A stretch of DNA of 64,000 nt from an uncultured Bacillota bacterium (GTDB lineage: Bacteria > Bacillota > Clostridia > Oscillospirales > Oscillospiraceae). The stretch is taken from positions 1-64,000 of the forward strand of contig CANSSJ010000002.1 of the NCBI GenBank assembly GCA_947649625.1, in the 5' to 3' direction. The notes under the pieces are model-generated. The model saw only the letters and a program-made list of their open reading frames with translations, was not told the origin of the DNA and searched no databases. This document shows, in pieces, positions 5,294 to 16,863 of the stretch (position 1 is its first letter; each line of letters starts with the position of its first letter). Made by a program: the position numbers and the translations under genes.

Positions 5294-5703
5294 TGGGCGT
5301 TTTACCTACAACCGGGGATGACCTGGACCTCATTGCTTTCCAGTTTAATGTCCAGCCGGGCTTGACTCACAAGCTGGACATTGACCGGGACCGGGTGAGA
5401 GGTATGACAGACGGGCGGGATGCCGTTCTCCAAGCTGTGTATCTCATTTTGAACGTGGAGCGCTACGCTTACCCTATCTACTCCCGCAATTACGGCTCTG
5501 AGCTGTCTGATCTGATAGGCAAGCCAAAGAACTACGCCATGAGCGAAATAAAGCGGCGCATTACGGAGGCTTTGATGCAGGATGACCGTATTACAAGCCT
5601 GAGTGACTGGGACTTTGAGCCGGGCCGGAAAAGCGTGCGGGCCAGCTTTGTGGTCCATACCATCTATGGGGACGTTGAGGCCACAAAGGAGGTTGATGTG
5701 TAA
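5293..5703 (+). CDS. DUF2634-type baseplate wedge protein, XkdS-like (gp25-type)
   Basis: A protein of 136 residues from the ATG at 5293, which overlaps the previous stop (TAATG) and has GGAGGCAAGAG upstream. An in-frame ATG at 5275 would sit inside the previous gene. The gp25/lysozyme-like signature is visible: GRDAVLQAVYLILNVERYAY, then YSRNYGSEL and a DDRI segment. XkdS proteins link the hub to the wedges. The following gene is the baseplate J homologue, as in PBSX. Confidence 0.78.
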   Translation: MGVLPTTGDDLDLIAFQFNVQPGLTHKLDIDRDRVRGMTDGRDAVLQAVYLILNVERYAYPIYSRNYGSELSDLIGKPKNYAMSEIKRRITEALMQDDRITSLSDWDFEPGRKSVRASFVVHTIYGDVEATKEVDV

Positions 5704-6910: not shown

Positions 6911-7709
6911 AAAGCTCATCAACTACCTGCCCCCGGTGCTCCGGGAAGTGCTGGAGCTCAAAGCCGTCAATGAGGCCAATGAGCCGGAAATCTCCCTTGC
7001 GTGGGACGCTCTGGCCCTTGTCATGGCCAATCAGTTTTTGGAGGAGGCAGATGAGCGGGGCGTGTCTGTGTGGGAGAAAGAGCTGAAAATCTTTCCAAAA
7101 GATACGGACACCATGGAGCTCCGCAAGGCCCGCATAAAGGCCATGTGGAATTTAGAAATTCCCTATACAGTCCCTTGGCTCAAAAACTGGCTTACAAGTA
7201 TCTGCGGCCCCACTGGGCATGAGGAAACCATCCGGGACTATACCATTGCCATTGAGCTTGACTACACCAAGCTGCCGGACGCTGACAGCCTGGCGGCGGA
7301 AATCCTCAAAATGCTGCTGGCGGTACGGCCCTCCAATATGCGGGTGCTCATGGCCGCTTTTTTGCAGTCCTATGGCACCGTTTCCTTTGGGGTTACCACG
7401 GAGGTGGCCCGTGACGTGGCGGTCTACCCGTGGATTGTGAGCAAGCTGGAGAGCACCGGCGGCGTGGCCATCGGAGCCTTTGCGGAAAGCGCCCACCAGG
7501 TAGACATTTACCCCAGTCTGGTGAGCAAGCTGGAAAGCACCGGCACCGTGCGCTGCTGCGCAACTTTGGAAAGCGTCAACCGTGTGGACGTGTGGCCTTG
7601 TCTGGTCCGCAACATGGAAAGCCAAGGCTCCGCCGCTATGGTGGGCGCTCTGGAATACCACAACACCGTTGAAATTTACCCAACAGAACAGGAGGAGCAA
7701 AATGCCTAA
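6903..7709 (+). CDS. Putative phage tail protein, DUF2313/XkdU-like, with C-terminal repeats
   Basis: A protein of 268 residues from the GTG at 6903, overlapping the previous frame by 8 bases. The N-terminal 160 residues (INYLPPVLREVLELKAVNEA, DTDTMELRKARIKAMWN, PYTVPWLKNWLTS) match DUF2313/YmfQ proteins found between baseplate J and the tail fibre. The C-terminal 100 residues hold about three copies of a roughly 28-residue repeat (YPWIVSKLESTG, YPSLVSKLESTG, WPCLVRNMESQG). The repeats look like an added binding or fibre-joining module. Confidence 0.75.
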   Translation: MDRKLINYLPPVLREVLELKAVNEANEPEISLAWDALALVMANQFLEEADERGVSVWEKELKIFPKDTDTMELRKARIKAMWNLEIPYTVPWLKNWLTSICGPTGHEETIRDYTIAIELDYTKLPDADSLAAEILKMLLAVRPSNMRVLMAAFLQSYGTVSFGVTTEVARDVAVYPWIVSKLESTGGVAIGAFAESAHQVDIYPSLVSKLESTGTVRCCATLESVNRVDVWPCLVRNMESQGSAAMVGALEYHNTVEIYPTEQEEQNA

Positions 7710-8529
7710 CACAGAAAATCAGATTGCCGAGGAGGTCCGCTCCTACGGCACCAAGATCACCACCCAGGGGGCTGCGCTGCTTGCGGACTGTCTCCTCAAG
7801 GGTGAAATGCTGCAAATCACGGAGGCCGCCGCCGGTGACGGCGGAGGGGCCTATTATGAGCCCACCGTGGACCAGCAGGAGCTCAAAAATGAGAAGTGGC
7901 GGGGGCTGATTGCGTCCGCTCAACTGAGCCCCACCACCCCCAACATGATTGATGTCAAAATCGTCATTGAGGATATGGTGGGCGGCTTTACCATCCGTGA
8001 AATGGCCCTCTATGCTGACGACGGTACGGAGGAGGGCCTGATGCTGGCCGTATGTAACACCCCGGACACGGAAAAGGTGGCAATCTCCCAGGGCGTGTCT
8101 GGCAAGCTGACTATGATGATGCACATTGTAGTGGCAGACGCCTCCATCCTGGAGTTTACCATCAACCCCTCCCTGGACACGGTGAGCCGTCAGGAGATGG
8201 AGGCCGCCCTGCTGGACCACGACACCAGCGACACCAGCCACGCCGACATCCGGCAGCTTGCCCTCAACTCCGCCCAGATGGACCAGGTATTTACCAAGGA
8301 GGAAACCACTGAGGCCCTGGAGGACGCTATTGCCGCCCACAACAGTGACGGCACCGCCCATGCCTCTCTGCACGTCATGGTCACCGGCATTGACAGCCGC
8401 CTCAAAACCTTGGAGCTGAAATACGGCACCAACGTGACTGGCAACTCCTTTGAGGTCACGTTTACCAACCTCACCGGGCTGGTGGTGACCGGCGTGTGGA
8501 ATGAGACTTATGCAAGGGTGGAGTTTTAA
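7702..8529 (+). CDS. Phage tail fibre (DUF3751-type tail collar)
   Basis: A protein of 275 residues. The ATG at 7702 is chosen because GGAGGAGCAAA lies just upstream. The N-terminal part has the collar/fibre signature seen in phage fibres: GAALLADCLLKGEMLQIT, VDVKIVIED-like strands and GFTIREMALYADDG. The C-terminal 110 residues carry heptad-like helices and a short beta tip. No similarity to the DGR template repeat was found in it, so it is probably the constant fibre to which the variable protein is added. Confidence 0.75.
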   Translation: MPNTENQIAEEVRSYGTKITTQGAALLADCLLKGEMLQITEAAAGDGGGAYYEPTVDQQELKNEKWRGLIASAQLSPTTPNMIDVKIVIEDMVGGFTIREMALYADDGTEEGLMLAVCNTPDTEKVAISQGVSGKLTMMMHIVVADASILEFTINPSLDTVSRQEMEAALLDHDTSDTSHADIRQLALNSAQMDQVFTKEETTEALEDAIAAHNSDGTAHASLHVMVTGIDSRLKTLELKYGTNVTGNSFEVTFTNLTGLVVTGVWNETYARVEF

Positions 8530-9077
8530 TGCCCAATTATGACATCATACCCATGGCCGCTGATCTGCTGGACTATACCATCCAGCGGGTCAAGGCCGTG
8601 GAACCGGAATATAAGCCGGTGAGCGCCTACGTCATGGAGGAGGGCCAGCTTGTCCAGCGCACGCTCTACAAGAAAGTGCGGGATGACGGCAAGCCTCATT
8701 TCCCGAAAAGCCAAACTTTTCACCTGTGCTCCCGTCTGGAGCAGGGTGCCGCTGACATCCTGGAGCGGTGCATTTCCGCCAATGACCGTTACTTTGAAAC
8801 GGAGTATGAGGAACGCTTGAAAGACCTGGACGTGGTGGTCATGCTCTGTGAGACAATGCTCACCTATATCAATCTGAGCTACAAGAAAAAGTATATTTCA
8901 GATGACCAATGCCACTACTGGACGGAGCTTGTGCGCCCGGTAAAGCAAAAGGCTTTTAACTGGCGGAGAAATGACAGCAACAGAGCGGCAGCTCTGCGGG
9001 AGGCCAAGGCCGCTCAGGAGCTTGCCAAACTGGGGCAAATCGCTCAGCAGATGGCGGAGGCTATGCGCTCCGGCTAA
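8529..9077 (+). CDS. Probable DGR accessory protein, Avd-like four-helix bundle
   Basis: A protein of 182 residues whose start overlaps the fibre stop (TAATG). It is predicted almost wholly helical and positively charged. The central part (FPKSQTFHLCSRLEQGA, then ERCISAND, and TMLTYINLSYKKK) has the pattern of the Avd/bAvd four-helix family. Avd binds the DGR reverse transcriptase and the template RNA and is needed for mutagenic reverse transcription. It lies directly before the template repeat and RT, as expected. It is longer than typical Avd (about 125 residues), with extra helices at both ends. The name is an inference from fold pattern and location. Confidence 0.6.
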   Translation: MPNYDIIPMAADLLDYTIQRVKAVEPEYKPVSAYVMEEGQLVQRTLYKKVRDDGKPHFPKSQTFHLCSRLEQGAADILERCISANDRYFETEYEERLKDLDVVVMLCETMLTYINLSYKKKYISDDQCHYWTELVRPVKQKAFNWRRNDSNRAAALREAKAAQELAKLGQIAQQMAEAMRSG

Positions 9078-9133: not shown

Positions 9134-9235
9134 CGCTCCCCGAACACGAACAACACCGACAACGCCTGGAACTTGAACTCCAACGGCAACCTCAACAACA
9201 ACAACTGCTCCAACACCAACGGCTCCCGCCCCGCT
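9134..9235 (+). repeat. DGR template repeat (TR), 102 bp
   Basis: Aligns without gaps to the variable repeat at 10968-11069. By hand count, 32 of the 102 positions are A in the TR. Of these, 19 differ in the VR (to G, T or C), and all 70 non-A positions are identical. In the target's frame it is mostly AAC codons (14 AAC plus one GAC), which can change to many amino acids without making a stop. It is 56 bp downstream of the Avd-like gene and 244 bp before the RT. The exact edges are set by the first non-A mismatches on each side. Confidence 0.96.
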
Positions 9236-10505: not shown

Positions 10506-11726
10506 ATGGCCACAACAACCCTTGGCAACAAAGCGGTAATGAGCACCGTAAAGCTCAAAGAAAACGGCGTGCTGGTGGAGTTTTACATTGCCAGGCACAA
10601 CTATGAGCCCGGCCTGAATGGGCAGGGGCGCACTCTGGTGGTCCGTAAGGACTGCTATGACCAGCGCCAGTGGCACGGCTCCAATGTGAACGCCTACGCC
10701 ACCAGCGCCATTGACACCTGGCTCAACGGTACTTATAAAAACCTGCTGGATGCTGACATCCGGGCGGTCATGGGCACCACCAAGTTTTACTATACCCCCG
10801 GCAACGGCAACACCACCAAAACCACCCTGGAGCGGTCCGTGTTCCTGCTGTCCGCCACAGAACTGGGGCAGACCCACCAGTATCTCAACACTGAGGGCAC
10901 GGCGCTGGAGGGGGCCAACACCCTCAAGATCGCCAATTACAATGGCTCCGCAACGGTCCAGTGGACCCGCTCCCCGTACACGAACCGCACCGGCAGCGCC
11001 TGGTACTTGGACTCCAACGGCGGCCTCAGCGTCGGCAGCTGCTCCGGCACCGGCGGCTCCCGCCCCGCTTTCACTCTCCCCTCCACCCTCTCTGTCAGCG
11101 ATGACGGCTCTGTGTCTGTCAACACCGCCCCCGTTATCTCTGGCAGCGCAACCCCCGGCAGCGACCTTGGCACCAAGGCCGTTGGCTTTAATCTGACCTA
11201 CACCGTGGCGGATGCAGACGGTGACACCGTGACCGTCAAGGAATATCTGGATAACGTGCTCCAGCGAACCTATACGGCCACCCTGGGCCAGACCAACACT
11301 TTCCAGGCTGTCACCGCCGCCAATTTCCAGAAAGTCCTCAACGGGGCCCACACCCTCAAGGTGGTGGCCAATGACGGCAAAGCGGACAGCGCCGCTTACA
11401 CCGTGACCTTTACCAAAAAGGTCACCAGCGCCAGCATCACCCTGGCGGAGCCCCTGGACGCCGATGACGCCATCACCGTCATGGTCCTCAACATCGTGGG
11501 CGCTCTGCCCGTTGACGCCGTGCTCCAGGTCCTGGTCACCAACAACGCCAAGGACGCCGCCCCCGTGTGGGAGGACGCCACGGCGGACATCAAGAGCGGA
11601 GCCAACCATGTCTTTGAGAACAAGACCGCCGCAAATGGCTTTGCGTTCAACTTCAAGCTGGACGTGAGCCGGGGGGGCAGTGACACCGGCGGCTATATTT
11701 CCAGCATCGGAGGTGCCTTTGAATGA
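10506..11726 (+). CDS. DGR target protein: DUF6273-like C-type-lectin-fold tail protein with Ig-like C-terminal region
   Basis: A protein of 406 residues with AAAGGAGG before the ATG. Residues 1-190 form a DUF6273-like domain (STVKLKENGVLVEFYIARHN, AIDTWLNGTYKNLL, SVFLLSATELG, then the variable segment and GSRPAF). This is a fold that many DGRs diversify. The variable residues are 158-183. Residues 190-300 look like one or two bacterial Ig/cadherin-like domains (NTAPVISGSA, YTVADADGDTVTV), and about 310-406 is another beta-rich domain. It likely sits at the tip of the phage fibre and decides which host surface is bound. It overlaps the next gene by 4 bases. Confidence 0.9.
   Translation: MATTTLGNKAVMSTVKLKENGVLVEFYIARHNYEPGLNGQGRTLVVRKDCYDQRQWHGSNVNAYATSAIDTWLNGTYKNLLDADIRAVMGTTKFYYTPGNGNTTKTTLERSVFLLSATELGQTHQYLNTEGTALEGANTLKIANYNGSATVQWTRSPYTNRTGSAWYLDSNGGLSVGSCSGTGGSRPAFTLPSTLSVSDDGSVSVNTAPVISGSATPGSDLGTKAVGFNLTYTVADADGDTVTVKEYLDNVLQRTYTATLGQTNTFQAVTAANFQKVLNGAHTLKVVANDGKADSAAYTVTFTKKVTSASITLAEPLDADDAITVMVLNIVGALPVDAVLQVLVTNNAKDAAPVWEDATADIKSGANHVFENKTAANGFAFNFKLDVSRGGSDTGGYISSIGGAFE
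10968..11069 (+). repeat. DGR variable repeat (VR), 102 bp, inside the target gene
   Basis: Covers codons 155-188 of the target. Compared with the TR, 13 codons are changed: N158Y, N161R, D163G, N164S, N167Y, N169D, N173G, N175S, N176V, N177G, N178S, N181G and N183G. Every base change is at an adenine of the TR. N160 and N171 are unchanged. The last 15 bases (GGCTCCCGCCCCGCT), which are free of adenine and identical in TR and VR, are the likely site where cDNA integration starts. Confidence 0.96.
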
Positions 11727-12181
11727 GCGTTGAATACACCCAGAATAGCCTCAAGGCCATCAATGAGGCCAAGCTCTACGCCAAGCAGCGGGAGGACGCC
11801 GCCGCCATCGCCTTTGTGGTGCTGGCGGAAAACGGCCAGATTGACGCCGTGACCGCTGCCGAACAGTCCACCCTCTTTGCGGAGTGGGTGCCCGGCGTCA
11901 ACTACGCCGTGGGCAACCTCCGCCGGTATGGCGGCACCCTTTACCGCTGTGTCCAGGAGCACACGTCCCAGGAGGGGTGGGAGCCGGACAAGGCCGCCTC
12001 CCTCTGGGCGGTGACCTCTGACCCGGCGGAGGAGTGGCCCGCCTGGAGCCAACCCCTGGGGGCCCATGACGCATACAGCGCCGGGGCTAAGGTGAACCAC
12101 AAAGGCAAGCATTGGACCTCTACCGTGGACGGCAACGTCTGGGAGCCCGGCGTCTATGGCTGGGATGAGGTCACCGAATAA
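11723..12181 (+). CDS. Small phage protein with carbohydrate-binding (CBM5/12-like) repeats
   Basis: A protein of 152 residues with ATGA coupling to the target gene. The first 40 residues are helical. The rest has two Trp/Tyr-rich segments of the type found in chitin-binding CBM5/12 modules of phage tails: WVPGVNYAVGNLRRYGGTLY with YRCVQEHTSQEGWEPD, then WSQPLGAHDAYSAGAKVNHKG-type repeats. It may be a fibre-tip or assembly partner of the variable protein. Function is inferred from motif and position. Confidence 0.62.
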   Translation: MSVEYTQNSLKAINEAKLYAKQREDAAAIAFVVLAENGQIDAVTAAEQSTLFAEWVPGVNYAVGNLRRYGGTLYRCVQEHTSQEGWEPDKAASLWAVTSDPAEEWPAWSQPLGAHDAYSAGAKVNHKGKHWTSTVDGNVWEPGVYGWDEVTE

Positions 12182-15822: not shown

Positions 15823-16863
15823 ATGAACCACAAAGGAGCCACCCATTTCACACTCAATGACCGGCAGACCCTGGAGCGGATGCTGAGAAAAGGCTTTTCA
15901 AAGCCCGCTATTGCGGAGGCCCTGGGCAAGTGTGAACGGTCTATCTACTATGAAATAGGCCGGGGCCTGTGCGTCCAGCGCACCACGGACCTCATTGACG
16001 TTGAGGTCTATTGTGCGGACGTGGCACACCGCAAATACAAGGCTTTCCTCAAGGAAAAGGGCAAGGAGCTCAAAATCGGCCATGACCACGCCCTGGTCCA
16101 ACGGCTGGAGGAGCTCATCATGGTCCAAGGCTTTGCCCCTGGTGCCGCCCTTGCGGAAATCCGAAACAACGGAGAGCATTTTGACACGGAAATCTGTGAG
16201 AATACGGTCTATAATTACATCTACCGTGGGGACGTGTTCCTCTTTCTGACCCCGGAGCACCTGCATGACAAAGGCCGCCGCCACTACGCCGCCAAGAGCA
16301 AAAAGGAGGCGGCCAGGGCTCCCCGTGGCCAGAGCATCGAAAAGCGCCCGGAGGAGGTCAAGAGCCGGGGCAGTTTTGGGCACTGGGAGATGGACAGCGT
16401 TATGGGGTGCAAGGGCTCCAAGCAAGCCCTCCTGGTGCTGACAGAGCGGAGGACCCGCATGGGGATTGTCCTGCTGGTGGAGGACCACACGGCGGCCAGC
16501 GTGGTCAAGGCCATCAACGGCCTGGAGCGGCGCTTTGGCAAGCTGTTCTATAAACTTTTTAAGAGCATAACTGTTGACAACGGCTGCGAATTTCAAGACT
16601 TTGAGGGCATAGAGATGTCCCACCGGCGCAAGGGCAAGCGGACCATTGTGTTTTTCTGTCACCCATATAGCGCTTATGAGCGGGGGAGCAATGAGAACAT
16701 GAACCGGCTAATTAGACGGTTTTTCCCCAAGGGCACCAACTTTGATGAGGTCACAAAGGAGGAGGTGATGACTGCGGAGAGGTGGGTCAATAACTACCCC
16801 CGCAAGATACTGGGGTGGAAATCCGCCGCCATGCTCTTTGACCAGGAGCTCCAAGCGGCGTGA
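15823..16863 (+). CDS. IS30-family transposase (prophage-borne)
   Basis: A protein of 346 residues with TGGAGG before ATG. There is an N-terminal helix-turn-helix (FTLNDRQTLERMLRKGFSK, AIAEALGKCERSIYYEI) and an rve-type DDE domain: D191 in HWEMDSV, D252 in TVDNGCEF, and E291 in RGSNENMNRLIRRFFPKGTNF, the last being an IS30 hallmark. The length fits the family. It is the last gene before host ftsH and is co-oriented behind the operator promoter. No terminal inverted repeats hugging the gene were found, so it may serve the phage itself and not an independent IS. Confidence 0.88.
   Translation: MNHKGATHFTLNDRQTLERMLRKGFSKPAIAEALGKCERSIYYEIGRGLCVQRTTDLIDVEVYCADVAHRKYKAFLKEKGKELKIGHDHALVQRLEELIMVQGFAPGAALAEIRNNGEHFDTEICENTVYNYIYRGDVFLFLTPEHLHDKGRRHYAAKSKKEAARAPRGQSIEKRPEEVKSRGSFGHWEMDSVMGCKGSKQALLVLTERRTRMGIVLLVEDHTAASVVKAINGLERRFGKLFYKLFKSITVDNGCEFQDFEGIEMSHRRKGKRTIVFFCHPYSAYERGSNENMNRLIRRFFPKGTNFDEVTKEEVMTAERWVNNYPRKILGWKSAAMLFDQELQAA

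Follow-up and report, generated by a model that had tools for sequence, protein, structure and literature searches.

The closest described systems are the tentaclins, phage DGR targets for which PMC10743442 describes an N-terminal DUF6273/C-lec domain with the variable repeat (VR) on a surface beta-hairpin, 1 to 4 Ig domains, and, at the C terminus, an Ig anchor in which seven residues are conserved. In Faecalibacterium phages, VRs were mapped to the C terminus of DUF6273 (PMC11792537, 2024). Tentaclins break the rule that VRs are C-terminal, a position that a global survey ascribed to the need for noncoding cis elements (PMC8144416) and for which a terminator-like hairpin is another account (PMC3240598). 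In BPP-1, a GC hairpin right after the VR is needed for efficient homing (PMC3240598). Deletion of this hairpin lowers homing without abolishing it (PMC12875486), hence a post-VR hairpin is a usual rather than a defining DGR feature. No mechanism for internal VRs was found in the literature searched, and the excerpts of the tentaclin paper (PMC10743442) do not discuss a DNA signal after the VR.

The window, a 64,000-nt stretch of DNA from an uncultured Bacillota bacterium, contains a complete DGR in a prophage tail module, with Avd, template repeat (TR), reverse transcriptase (RT), and target in this order on the forward strand (Table 1). A DGR-type RT, an adenine-specific TR/VR pair, and an Avd gene were all present, and the RT grouped in the tree among RTs having TR/VR pairs. 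Besides its PHROG match, Avd matched NCBIfam DivGenRetAVD at 3.7e-7, under the cut-off of that model. The target ATG immediately follows the RT stop codon. FP_Brigit and FP_Toutatis share the order Avd-TR-RT-target, and the targets of Brigit, Lelie, and Toutatis have 45 to 48% protein identity to the window target. Likewise, the VR is at the end of DUF6273 in the targets of Brigit, Toutatis, Lelie, and Mushu (PMC11792537; PMC10743442). These Faecalibacterium phages differ from the window prophage in host and phage group, and the Brigit and Mushu targets are longer. With the BPP-1 DGR (Mtd), the locus shares TR/VR adenine mutagenesis, Avd, RT, a GC-rich VR end, and C-type-lectin display, whereas in BPP-1 the VR is at the gene 3' end and the target is upstream of the RT (PMC3240598). 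In FP_Toutatis (L164), the TR region at 2453-2605 carries the annotation of a protein with a DUF6273 domain (gp80), which is probably an error for the TR itself. Within the window, the CBM5/12 protein next to the target is possibly a second adhesin part, and an IS30-like transposase (15823-16863, recognized by eye) adjoins two helix-turn-helix regulators just past the prophage lysis genes.

Table 1. Features of the DGR locus and of its target gene in the window
Feature	Position	Strand	Basis
Tail-collar fibre protein, upstream neighbor, phage tail module	7693..8529	+	Pfam Phage_tail_fib E 1.1e-35
Avd accessory protein of DGR	8529..9077	+	phrog_3206 'Avd protein of DGR' E 7.8e-25
Template repeat (TR), 102 nt, 32 adenines	9134..9235	+	81% identity to VR
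DGR reverse transcriptase, 341 aa	9480..10505	+	RVT_1 3.4e-18; phrog_1423 1.3e-117; motif WYGRYMDD
DGR target protein, 406 aa, tentaclin type	10506..11726	+	single open frame; DUF6273 + Hoc-like tail
DUF6273 / C-type-lectin-like domain, residues 40-193	10623..11084	+	Pfam PF19789 E 9e-26; AlphaFold2 pLDDT 95.8; Foldseek
Variable repeat (VR), codons 155-188	10968..11069	+	TR alignment; same-TR relatives differ only here
GC-rich VR 3' end, same in TR; IMH-like stretch GGCTCCCGCCCCGCT	11055..11069	+	TR/VR alignment
Synonymously frozen 45 nt right after VR, codons 189-203, proposed coding-embedded cis element	11070..11114	+	synonymous-identity test
Three CTC boxes at exact 7-nt spacing: CTCT 11074, CTCC 11081, CTCT 11088	11074..11091	+	sequence
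First Ig-like domain, residues 206-303	11121..11414	+	Pfam Big_9 weak, E 0.025, below cut-off; Foldseek Ig/Fn3 tandem matches
C-terminal Ig-like anchor domain, residues about 308-406	11427..11723	+	alignment with nd4, nd12, Brigit, Mushu, Lelie, Toutatis
CBM5/12 carbohydrate-binding-module protein	11723..12181	+	Pfam CBM_5_12 E 2e-14; start overlaps target stop by 4 nt

Across 102 aligned nt, TR and VR differed at 19 positions (15 A>G, 3 A>T, 1 A>C), all of them TR adenines, of which 32 were available; were the mismatches placed randomly, all 19 would coincide with adenines with a probability of about (32/102)^19, or ~3e-10. An earlier note on this DNA had proposed that mutagenesis is confined to AAC codons and so creates no stops. 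The latter part holds, since TR codons containing A are AAC, ACC, ACG, and GAC only and no A>N change in the TR can therefore yield a stop; the former does not, as 28 of the 32 mutable adenines are in AAC codons with the others elsewhere, and GAC codon 163 was altered as well (D>G). The GC-rich stretch GGCTCCCGCCCCGCT that closes the VR is placed like the IMH of BPP-1 and by analogy may function as one. Across the genome, a search for a second VR found none, leaving a single VR here compared with the two targets reported for nd4 and nd12 in the tentaclin paper.

The TR/VR alignment and the reading frame confirmed that the VR is internal to the target, as the earlier note had it, with 218 residues following codons 155-188 of 406. 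The GSRPAF motif (residues 184-189) closes the DUF6273-like domain, also as proposed. A separate downstream gene, which the same note had set as a refutation, is not present: the frame runs on without a break, and L058, a relative, aligned end to end with a full-length 556-aa family. The variable domain is accordingly N-terminal to a tail within the same protein, consisting of two Ig-like domains, the last with the tentaclin anchor signature. That the remainder may serve as an anchor was already the published view and fits here. The target is a member of the tentaclins, and the novelty that the note implied for an internal VR does not stand: the topology was described in 2023 (PMC10743442), and VRs at the DUF6273 C terminus were described in 2024 (PMC11792537). 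Consistent with this assignment, the target shares with nd4 and nd12 a DUF6273/C-lec domain with VR, Ig domains, a C-terminal Ig anchor, and its status as a DGR target, and its 406 aa are inside the published range of 313 to 649 aa, although nd4 and nd12 have three Ig domains and the window target has two (PMC10743442). Aligning the window target with those of nd4, nd12, Brigit, Mushu, Lelie, Toutatis, and the fetched loci gave exactly seven invariant C-terminal residues (N346, N347, D350, P353, W355, T359, and N372), a match to PMC10743442 by number and by the founding members included, rather than residue for residue.

Residues 202-406 matched phrog_10993, 'Hoc-like head decoration', over its final 200 positions (E 3.5e-88), and both the structural model and the fold search gave two Ig-like domains in this tail, for which Pfam support was weak. 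The full-length predicted model had a mean pLDDT of 91.8, and the AlphaFold2 model of the N-domain had a pLDDT of 95.8 and a pTM of 0.92. On the predicted model, variable codons fell in a loop (158-163), a beta-hairpin (164-168/174-178), and then a turn and strand. The published nd4 and nd12 models, together with the tolerated variation, suggest by analogy that these residues are exposed. The best PDB match of the N-domain in Foldseek was 9qa6, a solved IgA peptidase (E 3.4e-7, TMq 0.70), with much weaker matches to lectin-type domains; the tail matched Ig/Fn3 chains. A PDB search with the single sequence gave no informative match, whereas an independent profile search also returned 9qa6 for the N-terminal part (E 9e-19) and, for the Ig part, 31he, a chain of a phage tail fibre. 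The 9qa6 protein is the IgA peptidase of Thomasclavelia ramosa, whose N-terminal part resembles DUF6273 and thereby represents a solved relative of the domain.

The 45 nt immediately after the VR were conserved beyond the encoded peptide. Across 14 related targets, synonymous identity in codons 189-203 was 0.954 compared with 0.464 expected, and it was 0.665 in codons 1-154 and 0.699 in codons 204-406. No other run of 15 codons outside the VR was under stronger synonymous constraint, and 11 of 13 informative codon columns were invariant there compared with 38 of 218 elsewhere (p 5e-5 by permutation of columns). DNA-level constraint on codons 189-203 thus appears well supported.

The same region in related DGRs carried ATC/TCT motifs repeating every 7 to 8 nt within 50 to 60 nt past the VRs. 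At loci with a C-terminal VR, the motifs were intergenic or ran beyond the stop codon (ATCT 51 vs. 17.5 shuffled), while at loci with an internal VR they were translated, with 44 TCT pairs at lag 7/8 compared with 2.8 ± 1.8 under synonymous shuffling and only 0 to 1 at offset controls of -150, +150, and +300. ATC/TCT pairs followed 25 of 33 C-terminal VRs and 15 of 20 internal VRs, and essentially no TR. For four [AC]TCT boxes, the commonest geometry was 0, 7, 14, 22, and all four were present in 14 of 53 loci (0.4 expected); replication in genus genomes gave 11 compared with 0.40, from five genuine targets and one spurious frame that scored zero. Recognition of the array motif by eye preceded the tests, in which a synonymous null together with TR and offset controls guarded against effects of composition; array-bearing lineages share ancestry, and homologous linker peptides make the internal-VR lineages partly nonindependent. 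The window itself fills three of the four positions of the 7-7-8 array, as CTC boxes, and has no strict TCT pairs after its VR. Phage nd4 carries near-identical arrays behind both of its VRs, which are 10 kb apart, but no array behind its TR; its second VR (L188, 31375-31463) is ~68 residues before the C terminus of the gene and is followed by nearly the array of VR1. The phased array was absent from BPP-1 and Hankyphage. No report of a coding-embedded signal or phased array after a VR was found in the open-access literature searched.

A control set of 27 DUF6273 genes, from genomes with no DGR RT close by, gave a mixed picture of how far the array follows DGRs, since 18 of the 27 lacked it. 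The remaining 9 had at least three boxes, and the array was rejected as an exclusive mark of DGRs. Among the 18 are all scored genes of genome G097, which has 19 DUF6273 matches and no DGR-type RT match; these genes had 0 to 1 boxes (contigs including L189 and L219-L232). Perfect four-box arrays were found after DUF6273 in surface-protein genes of genomes without a detected DGR RT (L199 and L205, also L204 and L210); L199 and L205, two of the 9 and from sister genomes, showed no VR-type variation relative to one another. It is possible that arrays in RT-less genomes are remnants of lost DGRs. RNA-guided pairing between the array and the TR flank was also rejected, with complementary motifs not enriched in the TR-RT spacer and matches that were short and of chance length.

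A single VR sequence is available for this exact prophage, which leaves room for the VR being a dead relic of an inactive DGR. We consider such a relic highly improbable, given that the RT, Avd, and TR are intact and that the 19 changes are confined to adenines. Furthermore, L037, L039, and L040, which have identical TRs, had 0 differences in 400 bp on each side of the VR and 19 to 21 differences inside it, all at TR adenines, and L012, L016, L018, and L102 behaved alike, with 0 to 1 flank differences and variation in the VR. Since relatives with identical flanks vary in the VR at TR adenines only, the internal VR is active in this family; this evidence comes from close relatives. A canonical BPP-1-like hairpin, embedded in coding DNA downstream of the VR, is also very improbable for the window. 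Other internal-VR lineages do have stems exceeding synonymous shuffles, namely L070 (17 bp, p 0.001), L112 (0.004), L138 (0.009), L121 (0.012), and L143 (0.037). However, a GC-rich hairpin (7 to 10 bp, GRNA loop) was absent after the window VR, where the best structure, GTCA-GCGA-TGAC, has a 4-bp stem (p 0.84 vs. synonymous shuffles) that is broken in the close relatives L022 and L099. The BPP-1 hairpin, GCGGGGCC-GAAA-GGCCCCGC, starts 4 nt past the VR (PMC3240598). The clearest coding hairpin was the 17-bp perfect inverted repeat of L070 just past its VR (5602-5638; TTGTAGCTACCGTCGCC-AAC-GGCGACGGTAGCTACAA).

Alternatively, this may be a plain tentaclin DGR in which the GC-rich VR end and homology suffice, the 45-nt conservation reflecting protein constraint on the linker or codon bias. 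The linker peptide FTLPSxLxVSDDG is itself conserved, homing of BPP-1 survives loss of its hairpin (PMC12875486), and some RT-less DUF6273 genes keep the array, all of which would fit. However, the freezing affects synonymous sites and not residues alone, nulls built from synonymous codons were surpassed about 15-fold, identical boxes occur past stop codons in intergenic DNA at C-terminal-VR loci, and the 7 to 8 nt spacing is out of codon phase, making this account unlikely. We regard as evenly balanced the stronger proposal, namely that a related group of DGRs recognizes its target through an undescribed element of four [AC]TCT boxes, which directly follow the VR at a spacing of 7-7-8 nt, whether or not a hairpin is present. 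Such an element could be coding and would free the VR from the gene 3' end, contradicting the view that VRs are C-terminal because cis signals must be noncoding. For the window, the frozen stretch and its boxes would on this proposal be the retrohoming element, which we infer from conservation and spacing. That the target is a Hoc-like head-decoration protein holding phages in mucus, instead of a tail receptor-binding protein, seems doubtful. Such a role is suggested by the name of the PHROG family and the tandem Ig folds, and a mucus role was discussed for the Mushu target (PMC11792537). The gene, however, is in the tail module, after baseplate/tail-collar fibre genes and before lysis genes, in both the window and FP_Brigit. 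T4 Hoc resembles the target in being a chain of Ig-like domains and is not known to have a DGR. It also differs in having no lectin domain and another capsid anchor (PMC10743442).

Taken as a whole, the explanation that we consider probable is that the prophage DGR diversifies a tentaclin adhesin, anchored by its C-terminal Ig domain, with a coding-embedded retrohoming signal after the VR. The N-terminal DUF6273 lectin domain would carry the variable hairpin of an elongated adhesin, extended by two Ig domains, the C-terminal one of which would anchor it to the virion, probably to the tail given the gene context. Because the target would be held by its C terminus, the variable lectin would occupy the free N-terminal end, distal to the anchor. 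The cis signal would comprise the GC-rich VR end and the phased [AC]TCT/CTC array, located inside coding DNA of the lectin-Ig linker and replacing intergenic DNA or a GC hairpin of the BPP-1 type; its position in the linker would make retrohoming possible at an internal VR. Recognition of the array, whether by the Avd/RT complex or by a host factor, would take place at the VR but not at the TR. The internal-VR protein layout is already known; the apparent novelty lies in the way that a retrohoming signal is retained at an internal VR. Synonymous freezing and phased boxes point to a specific candidate, open to testing, for a target signal embedded in coding DNA. If true, this would account for the internal VRs of phage tentaclins, perhaps also for those of bacterial surface proteins, and would give a wider choice of DGR target placement in protein engineering.

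Among 77 RTs, targets downstream of the RT tended to have internal VRs and upstream targets C-terminal VRs. Gene order as the cause of an internal VR was rejected, with 6 to 7 changes on the tree and only three supported independent pairs, which was not significant. Several sequences in the collection had disrupted frames. The VRs of L121 and L127, at first taken as odd, are internal, and the frame shifts at the VR or directly behind it, reflecting either assembly errors or inactive variants, and the same two readings apply to the in-frame stop in the VR of L055 (5694-5825). RT matches in L075 (4001-4957) and L131 (4001-4948) contained in-frame stops under table 11. Several internal-VR targets outside the tentaclins resembled bacterial surface proteins, for example that of L131, with SLH domains near its C terminus.
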